From NCBI GenBank assembly GCA_016286445.1, contig JAEESS010000029.1, positions 1 through 32,061 on the forward strand: a DNA stretch of 32,061 nt, read 5' to 3'. Of the stretch, positions 9,701-10,785 are shown one piece after another (within the stretch, counting starts at the first letter, position 1; every line of letters starts with the position of its first letter). The stretch comes from Bacillota bacterium. Lineage in GTDB: Bacteria > Bacillota > Clostridia > Christensenellales > CAG-138. The notes beneath the pieces are model-generated. The model was not told the DNA's origin. It saw nothing but the letters and a program-made list of their open reading frames with translations, and did no database searches. A program made the translations under genes and the position numbers.

Positions 9701-9729
9701 TTGCGGTTTTCCGCCCGTCGTGAAATAAT
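9701..9729 (+). promoter_or_regulatory. Promoter for the structured RNA leader
   Basis: TTGCGG (9701-9706), 17-base spacer, AATAAT (9724-9729). The -35 box is weak, but the predicted start near 9736 coincides with the first base pair of the long leader helix, which supports it. Confidence 0.5.
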
Positions 9730-9734
9730 TCAAA

Positions 9735-9920
9735 CTGCGGCACAAATCGAATACATATCTCACTCGAACCGAACATAGAATCGGTGTATGTCTTTTGCTA
9801 TTGGCAAAAGCGTACAGCTCCAACAGGGCACGCCGATTCTGTGCGATTGTGTTCGATTTGTGTCGCAGCAAAGGAGCTTGCATTTTTCGTGCGCAGCTCC
9901 GGCTGCGCACTTTTCTTTTT
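9735..9920 (+). ncRNA. Candidate structured RNA leader with attenuator-like 3' end
   Basis: The plus-strand transcript can form a 21-bp outer helix (9735-9755 with 9848-9868). It has no mismatches, only two G-U pairs, which become A-C mismatches on the other strand. Inside it lies a 14-bp helix (9774-9787 with 9830-9843), again closed with G-U pairs, and a hairpin CTTTTGC/GCAAAAG (9792-9810). GGAGCT at 9873-9878 can pair either with AGCTCC in the apical region (9816-9821) or with AGCTCC inside the terminator stem (9895-9900). This is the plan of a terminator/antiterminator switch. The terminator abuts the ribosome binding site of the AMP-binding gene. I recognise no known riboswitch or T-box motif. 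A 6S-like free RNA of about 185 bases is the main alternative. Confidence 0.6.
9889..9920 (+). terminator. Intrinsic terminator at the end of the RNA leader
   Basis: A perfect 9-bp GC-rich stem (GTGCGCAGC with GCTGCGCAC) with a TCCG tetraloop, followed by TTTTCTTTTT. The ribosome binding site GGGAGGGG of the downstream gene starts at the next base, so termination here would silence that gene. Confidence 0.85.
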
Positions 9921-9931
9921 GGGAGGGGCAA

Positions 9932-10785
9932 ATGGAGCAAGCAAAACCGACGGGCTATCCGTCCGTCGACAAGCCGTGGCTGAAATACTATTCCGAGGAA
10001 ATCATCAACGCACCGCTGCCGGATTGCACGATATACGAATATCTTGTCGAGAACAACCGCGCGTATCCGAAGGATATTGCGATCCACTATCTGGGTCGCA
10101 GGATCACCTACGGGGAATTGTTCAAACGGATCGACGAGACCGCCGCCGCGTTTGCCGCTTTGGGCGTACAGCCGGGCGAGATCGTCACCGTTGCGCTGCC
10201 GAGCATTCCGGAGGCGCTGTATGCCGTCTATGCGCTGAATAAAATCGGCGCCGCCACAAACATGATCCATCCGCTTGCGGGCGAGGACGAGATCATCCAC
10301 TATCTCAACGAGGTCGAAAGCCGGGTCGCGATCCTGTTCGACGGAACCTATAAACTGATCGGAAAACGGATCGGCGAGACCTCGCTGAAACACGCGATCG
10401 TCGTTTCCGCGGGCGATTCGCTTCTCTTTGGCTTGAAACAGTTCTATTATTCGAACAATCCGAAGGTCCGGCTTCCGCAGGATTCGGTTTTCCACAGCTG
10501 GACATGGTTTTTGAAAGGCGGAAAAGGCACGGCTGTTCCGACGTTTGCGAAGGATCCCGATACGCTTGCGTTGATCTCCCATACCGTCGGCACGACCGGC
10601 GAGCCGAAGGGCGTTATGTGCTCGGATCGCAACATAAACGCGCTGATTTGGCAGATTGTCTGCAATTTTGAATACAAACGGCAATATACTTGTTTAGCTT
10701 TGTGTTCGTTGACGAGCTGCCGAGGACCTCGCGCGGCAAGATCGACTACCGCGCGCTGGAGGAACAGGCGGTGAAAGAAGCATAA
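9932..10785 (+). pseudogene. AMP-binding (acyl-CoA synthetase-like) gene with internal deletion and frame change
   Basis: The first 250 or so codons encode the N-terminal part of a class I adenylate-forming enzyme: TIYEYLVENN, ITYGELFKRID, VTVALPSIPEALYAVYALNKIGA and the phosphate loop SHTVGTTGEPKGVM (near 10,575-10,620). Homology stops at about 10,680. A second piece in another frame (10,699-10,785) gives FVFVDELPRTSRGKIDYRALE and a stop, the classic C-terminal end of this family with its catalytic lysine (GKID). The middle, around 250 residues with motifs A4-A8, is missing and the ends are out of frame. The product cannot be active. GGGAGGGG precedes the ATG at 9932. An assembly collapse could give the same picture. 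Confidence 0.85.

Follow-up and report, generated by a model that had tools for sequence, protein, structure and literature searches.

Introduction

In transcription attenuators, antiterminator and terminator are mutually exclusive. T-box riboswitches combine a long leader with a choice between terminator and antiterminator and occur in several copies per genome, and antitermination systems of the LoaP/NusG-paralog type rely on a hairpin in the leader RNA. As a class of mechanism, attenuation through competing strands is already known. The region described here lies on the plus strand of a 32,061-nt stretch of contig JAEESS010000029.1 (assembly GCA_016286445.1, a Bacillota bacterium; this whole stretch is called the window) and is, with a probability of roughly 80% judged from sequence, a cis-acting transcription attenuator that would work through competing strands, whatever its signal. 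As in other attenuators, one strand has two competing partners and the gene is immediately preceded by an intrinsic terminator; unlike in those, the sequestering strand lies in the apex of a long hairpin that P1, the outer helix, closes, so that its pairing gives a pseudoknot, and a conserved platform is combined with a mostly variable interior. With T-box leaders the element shares its length, the terminator/antiterminator choice and the presence of several copies per genome, but it gave no Rfam T-box match in the window, at 40 loci carrying the element or in one clean member (L217), and none of the 25 downstream protein families listed belongs by name to an amino-acid pathway.

The family, the capture of the linker by an apical strand, the abundance and the loose ties to genes appear to be undescribed in the literature searched, as judged from listings and the opening parts of abstracts. 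Candidate structured RNAs of the human microbiome (Fremin and Bhatt, 2021; PMC8040213) are large-scale predictions and may already include anonymous alignments of the element; the main-text passages of that paper that were consulted contain no description of such a switch.

Architecture of the leader

Positions 9701–9920 comprise, on the plus strand, a promoter, a long hairpin (P1, P2 and P3), a linker and an intrinsic terminator, with a gene directly 3′ of the terminator and an nrdR-like gene (ATP-cone plus NrdR zinc ribbon) divergent from the element. All pieces named in a first-pass annotation of the window were found where it had placed them. The outer helix P1 (inverted repeat I1, with covariation) pairs 9735–9755 with 9848–9868 in 19 Watson-Crick and 2 G-U pairs (21 in total), and the middle helix P2 (inverted repeat I2) pairs 9774–9787 with 9830–9843 in 12 Watson-Crick and 2 G-U pairs (14 in total), so that the deviations from Watson-Crick pairing in the two helices number four, each of them G-U. 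The last bases of the P2 5′ strand overlap the apical hairpin P3 (9786–9815), in which the minimum free energy fold pairs 9786–9790 with 9811–9815 and 9792–9799 with 9803–9810.

The 3′ arm of P3 together with AGCTCC makes up the apical switch strand AAAAGCGTACAGCTCC (9806–9821), an alternative partner of the linker. The linker, or switch strand, GGAGCTTGCATTTTT (9873–9887) can pair either with this apical strand or with 9889–9900. When the terminator 3′ arm is left out of the fold, an antiterminator hairpin forms at 9873–9900, in which 9873–9883 pair with 9889–9900 and 9894 is bulged. The intrinsic terminator stem-loop (9889–9910, with covariation) and its T tract (9911–9920), which is approximately the 3′ limit of leader homology between loci, were recovered by a terminator scan. 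The first-pass annotation had proposed that GGAGCT at 9873–9878 chooses between AGCTCC at 9816–9821 and AGCTCC at 9895–9900; all three motifs are present and both partners exist, but both pairings are longer than the 6 nt given there.

The proposed promoter (9701–9729) consists of a −35 hexamer TTGCGG (9701–9706), a 17-nt spacer and a −10 hexamer AATAAT (9724–9729) preceded by TGA. A strict sigma-70 scan made no call here, but an exact TATAAT was present in 7 of the 12 homologs of the first alignment. The best hexamer in the 26 nt before P1 matched TATAAT at 5 or 6 of 6 positions in 167 of 206 elements, versus 51 of 206 for control windows 70–96 nt upstream, and an exact TATAAT was found in 41 elements before P1 versus 1 in the control windows (206 each). 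The putative promoter is thus supported by −10 matches across the family.

The T tract is followed by the Shine-Dalgarno-like sequence GGGAGGGG (9921–9928) and by a gene for an AMP-binding (adenylate-forming) enzyme (9932–10774, ATG at 9932), in the order first reported, although the gene is decayed. It matches Pfam AMP-binding with an E value of 3.6e-34 over 200 of 384 positions and is 91% identical to a relative at locus L015, the likeness ending at about codon 241; sequence in another frame after the gene reads like what we take to be the C-terminus of such an enzyme. The leader itself is intact by pairing. Barring a fault in the assembly (completeness 82%, contamination 5.6%), the gene that the window copy drives may therefore be a decayed one.

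Comparison with Rfam

The whole window was compared with Rfam 15 (4227 models) at the gathering threshold, which returned two tRNAs and no match to the element. The same comparison at 40 loci carrying the element, two of which (L027 and L037) are weak element matches, returned tRNA, RNase P and THF matches only, none of them over the element. With E values up to 10, the window and L217 gave only chance matches to eukaryotic or archaeal-type small RNAs, such as miRNA. Infernal with Rfam thus matched the element to no known family, and the earlier view that it belongs to no recognised class holds for the window, the 40 loci and L217, among which no credible Rfam family was found.

Distribution and copy number

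Homologs were collected by nucleotide search in 61 genomes, including the window's own, followed by inspection, and a model (R1) was built from 13 elements, the window and 12 homologs. R1 matched, at E values up to 0.01, in 8 of 23 genomes from the genus and 89 of 297 from the order. A second, broader model (R2), built from 43 elements, matched at E values up to 0.001 in 100 of 391 genomes of the class; across 398 genomes drawn from the phylum, the window's own genome was the sole match. In searches of this size only a few candidates are scored for each genome (six class-wide), and counts of six are to be read as at least six. A deep search of five hand-picked genomes, four of them chosen because six copies had already been reached, gave 30, 18, 16, 7 and 1 copies, the three highest in G968 (30), G894 (18) and G772 (16). 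The window's genome holds two copies in total; the second (L031, G000:C31:45558-45740) lies before a lipoprotein-like gene.

A pattern scan of named genomes returned 104 stretches, and nearly all of the 80 listed are titled gut or rumen Clostridia. R1 matched 77 of 80 loci, of which 78 came from the pattern-scan list and two from IMG/VR; the three loci with no R1 match are titled Dechloromonas, Burkholderia and Verrucomicrobiales. Alignment A2 includes a few weak or opposite-strand matches. The element is a copy of an apparently undescribed RNA switch family in gut Clostridia. If so, uncultured gut Clostridia harbour a common switch RNA, present in 16–30 copies in three of five closely examined genomes, that had gone undescribed.

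Covariation of the helices and of the competing pairings

Covariation was measured in an alignment of 101 elements (101 matches from 100 hand-chosen loci). Since the alignment was fitted to P1, P3 and the terminator, the counts for those helices lean their way. In P1, P3 and the terminator together, 92.8% of 2810 cells were paired, and 289 double-changed cells were counted versus 76 in shuffles (0/500 as high) and at most 51 when the strands were slid; an earlier alignment of 88 matches agrees. Changes on both sides were seen in 10 of the 11 modelled pairs of P1 (94.9% of cells paired, 101 homologs), 5 of the 8 pairs of P3 (columns 82.6% paired) and 9 of 9 modelled pairs of the terminator (99.1% paired). 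Compensatory changes are thus abundant among the homologs in these helices, in keeping with the structure first drawn from the single sequence.

Both pairings of the switch strand were left out of the fitting. The linker-apical helix (15 pairs) was 90.7% paired with 46 double-changed cells versus 22.7 in shuffles, and 0/500 shuffles were as high on four of five measures (14/500 on the fifth). Pairing of the linker with the terminator arm (10 pairs) gave 90.8% paired cells and 25 double-changed cells versus 8.8 in shuffles, with 0/500 shuffles as high on four measures and 1/500 on the fifth. The shuffles were already 88% (linker-apical) and 87% (linker-terminator arm) paired because the switch strands are conserved, and the covariation there is small. 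When the antiterminator was slid by −1, 32 double-changed cells were counted versus 25 for the true pairing, yet only 38% of cells were paired; the apical helix slid by −3 gave 9 double-changed pairs, equal to the true pairing. A mutually exclusive terminator and antiterminator that both covary, as expected of an attenuator, were therefore found, with one slid control exceeding the true pairing on one measure.

Specificity of each linker for its own element was also compared. When pairing was scored over the entire interior, an element's own linker outdid the average of the swapped linkers in 113 of 142 elements, and it outdid all 60 interior shuffles in 59 of 142 (142 of 144 elements were used; L027 and L081 were dropped for odd segmentation). 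For rare linkers against their own terminator arm, the own pairing beat the average swapped one in 22 of 25 cases (L078, L085 and L100 were worse) and fell within the best tenth in only 9 of 25; the rare-linker tests drew on 138 of 142 elements, with L122, L145, L026 and L036 dropped. The apical part of that comparison is biased, the segment having been picked using the own linker, and is not relied on. Joint changes of the switch strand and both partners were seen in L019 (GAAGC/GCTTC/GCTTC), L070 (GGGAA/TTCCC/TTCCC) and L092 (GAGAG/CTCTC/CTCTC), and likewise in L099. Covariation above shuffles of both competing pairings of the GGAGCT strand is supported by these alignments; as the pairings are backed on 101 distinct copies, the mechanism is directly testable with compensatory mutants.

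Folding energies

The plus strand at 9725–9925 folds at −89.4 kcal/mol (z −7.9; 0/200 shuffles as good) and the minus strand at −75.5 kcal/mol (z −5.8). For the window, the antiterminator (11 bp) was computed at −14.9 kcal/mol, the terminator at −16.8 kcal/mol, and the apical pairing of 9806–9821 with 9873–9887 (14 pairs, one mismatch, one bulge) at −12.1 kcal/mol. Over 206 elements the medians are −12.1 kcal/mol for the antiterminator and −14.3 kcal/mol for the terminator, with a gap of at most 4 kcal/mol in 142 of 206. The terminator is the stabler of the two in 161 of 206 elements, so read-through hinges on the order of folding. A crude estimate gives medians of −16.7 for the linker-apical duplex and −8.3 for the P3 hairpin, the duplex being the stronger in 186 of 206 elements; the window is an exception, its apical duplex being weaker than P3 on the same crude estimate (−15.2 vs −17.3).

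GGAG stands 5 nt past the modelled P1 in 81 of 101 homologs, and the spacing from P1 to the T tract is 42–45 nt in 76 of 101 elements. Since the linker begins about 5 nt after P1, the apical pairing requires that P2 bend back alongside P1. The lengths between P1 and the apical strand are spread evenly and lend no support to helical phasing.

Proposed mechanism and alternatives

RNA polymerase would start at the foot of P1 and make the long hairpin, then the linker (9873–9887), then the terminator. Two partners, both supported by covariation, would be open to the linker: the apical strand (9806–9821), giving a pseudoknot that spans P1, and the terminator 5′ arm, giving the antiterminator; the 5′ arm could alternatively form the terminator itself. 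In the OFF state, the apical strand would take the emerging linker, the antiterminator would not form and transcription would stop at 9911–9920, leaving a free RNA of about 185 nt. In the ON state, with the apical strand kept within P3 or occupied by a factor, the antiterminator would form first and polymerase would read through into the gene. As the linker would emerge first, apical capture would decide between the two states. A trans-acting factor, either an RNA-binding protein or an RNA, might stabilise or open P3 and the apical region.

The attenuator reading, already put forward in the first-pass annotation, is favoured because P1, P3 and the terminator are kept, both switch pairings covary and a start codon lies near the T tract. 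With start codons picked by a Shine-Dalgarno-like rule, the distance from T tract to start codon is at most 60 nt in 150 of 206 elements, with a median of 26 nt among the 177 of 206 elements that have an ORF start within 160 nt (29 of 206 have no suitable ORF, 5 of these at contig ends). A start codon so near the T tract leaves little room for a further promoter, and the dependence of the gene on read-through is read from its position after the T tract.

A special case of attenuation would be a true riboswitch, in which a metabolite binds a core made of the apical-linker pseudoknot and the AAUA after P1. The architecture is riboswitch-like, and high conservation is seen at a few unpaired positions: AAUA following the P1 5′ strand (alignment columns 26–29; 70/97, 99/101, 94/101 and 85/100), GG before the apical strand (82/84 and 74/83) and CA after P1 (98/101 and 91/100). 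This conserved unpaired core is small, however, and most interior positions are nearly without information. Downstream ORFs were compared with Pfam (121 of 176 distinct ORFs were scanned), and the 121 proteins together match 68 families, 25 of them listed, with no evident common pathway; BspA-type leucine-rich repeats are the commonest (16), followed by zinc ribbons and Listeria-Bacteroides repeats, and some copies precede BspA-like surface, lipoprotein-like and zinc-ribbon proteins. Similar genes can also follow unrelated interiors, and a riboswitch is on balance unlikely. A trans-acting factor at P3 or the apical strand seems likelier than a metabolite of one pathway, since similar apical and linker cores precede very different genes. 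In the window the AAUA lies inside an extended P1; it may make a tertiary contact or act as a −10-like pause element.

In processive antitermination of the LoaP/NusG-paralog type, a factor loaded at the leader hairpin would carry polymerase past the terminator. The element, like those leaders, is a hairpin upstream of a terminator, and a second NusG-domain protein is encoded in the window's own genome (G000) and in G006. It differs in having a local antiterminator, which covaries, and in that the three most copy-rich genomes (G968, G894 and G772) have a single NusG-domain gene, as do G884, G852 and G003. A NusG paralog is not required for use of the leader, and such a mechanism is highly improbable. 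Links of the element to LoaP and to Y1 transposases were unsupported in the eight genomes searched.

The fallback of the first-pass annotation was a free 6S-like RNA of about 185 nt. In this reading, or in that of another trans-acting RNA, the terminator would be just the 3′ end and the downstream gene incidental. The element carries a promoter and a terminator of its own, RNA would still be made from tandem leaders and from leaders in front of gene fragments, and the length and the long rod with an internal loop recall 6S RNA (RF00013). The window has no covariance-model similarity to RF00013, however, and the 6S RNA of the genome is elsewhere (G000:C54, 60.9 bits). The element also differs from 6S RNA in its leader position, with the ORF distances given above, and in its many copies per genome, and a mere 3′ end would not need an antiterminator pairing that covaries; there is little probability left for a free RNA.

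A mobile DNA repeat (MITE or REP-like), with the inverted repeats as DNA ends lacking RNA function, would fit dispersed copies with unrelated flanks, but it is very nearly discounted by compensatory changes of RNA type, including G-U, by the lack of a Y1 transposase in G968 and G894 (G772 and G884 each have one) and by flanks in which no target-site duplications were seen (longest shared word averaging 5.49 vs 5.41 in swapped flanks, and 7 or longer in 19% vs 16%).

Possible exchange of leaders between genes

Leaders and the genes behind them are only loosely tied. Among the 206 elements, similarity over at least 90 nt joined 484 pairs of leaders and 68 pairs of genes, and 14 pairs were similar in both. 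Where leader identity reached 85% or more across 90% of the leader, 18 pairs showed no gene similarity in the up to 220 nt compared after the terminator and 7 pairs did. In those 18 pairs, identity was 0.29–0.40 at 40–90 nt upstream (0.24–0.29 in unrelated pairs), intermediate in the −35/−10 spacer (0.52 vs 0.31) and 0.37–0.39 at +10 to +25 past the T tract (background 0.31–0.32), falling to background thereafter. In all 17 leader-similar pairs inspected, the match began in the stretch from the −35 to the leader start and ended no more than about 26 nt from the end of the leader (20 compared pairs were hand-chosen, and four loci had 200 nt upstream only). Leaders up to 94% identical precede unrelated genes, with homology spanning promoter to terminator. 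A clean case is L112/L133 (93.6% over 156 nt, unrelated genes); in L150/L180 the leaders are 95.7% identical, with about 100 nt downstream compared for the first locus.

The converse was also seen. The window gene and the L015 gene are 93% identical over 217 nt, yet a leader-to-leader match is absent, and in a longer comparison the similarity sets in within the leaders, close to the apical strand. Similar genes with unlike leaders are likewise found at L231 and its divergent neighbour from the same genome. At L003 and L004, whose leaders are like that of the window, a window-like AMP-binding gene start follows as the second gene, and here the leader may have stayed in place, rather than moved, while a gene behind it was gained or lost. 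Of the 14 pairs similar in both parts, the leader was the more identical in 5 and the gene in 9; with the leader ahead in only 5 of 14, rapid divergence of the interior and exchange may both occur. The L137 array, which suggests fast divergence of the leader interior, has four leaders (the first truncated where the locus ends), each before a copy of one gene start; the flanks are nearly identical while the leaders are only 71–74% alike where compared.

On these comparisons the leader may be an exchangeable module. A broader reading, offered tentatively and with somewhat less than even odds, is a plug-in cassette of promoter, leader and terminator (about 220–250 bp) that would be swapped whole between unrelated accessory genes of gut Clostridia, in which lineages with different interiors would share the three-strand switch core and tandem leaders or arrays would give combinatorial control. 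Leader lineages with different interiors would then possibly have different specificities. Whole-leader exchange, if true, would show how newly acquired genes come under RNA control.

Phages and plasmids were considered as a general vehicle and rejected: no plasmid matched, and the ORFs of phage-labelled L270 look bacterial by eye. Two phage-labelled records match in part and hold whole elements, and two IMG/VR contigs (L209 and L210) carry the element. By eye, the ORFs of L209 presumably encode a reverse transcriptase, an endolysin, a phage protein and an IS30-type transposase, so some copies may ride prophages.

Tandem leaders and arrays

Two leaders in series, 34–86 nt apart, were noted at seven loci (L250, L252, L256, L212, L255, L233 and L241), and in 5 of the 7 an ORF starts within 160 nt after the second leader. 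Tandem arrays of diverged leaders with the same gene start occupy L137 1–1735 and L154 1137–1851; the gene repeated in these arrays is, by eye, presumably SLOG-like, and its copies in L137 are truncated except for the last, which is full length. Some interiors, such as those of L053, L055, L059 and the L137 array, contain by eye a small GGG-(AU-rich)-CCC hairpin followed by a T run, which is terminator- or pause-like.
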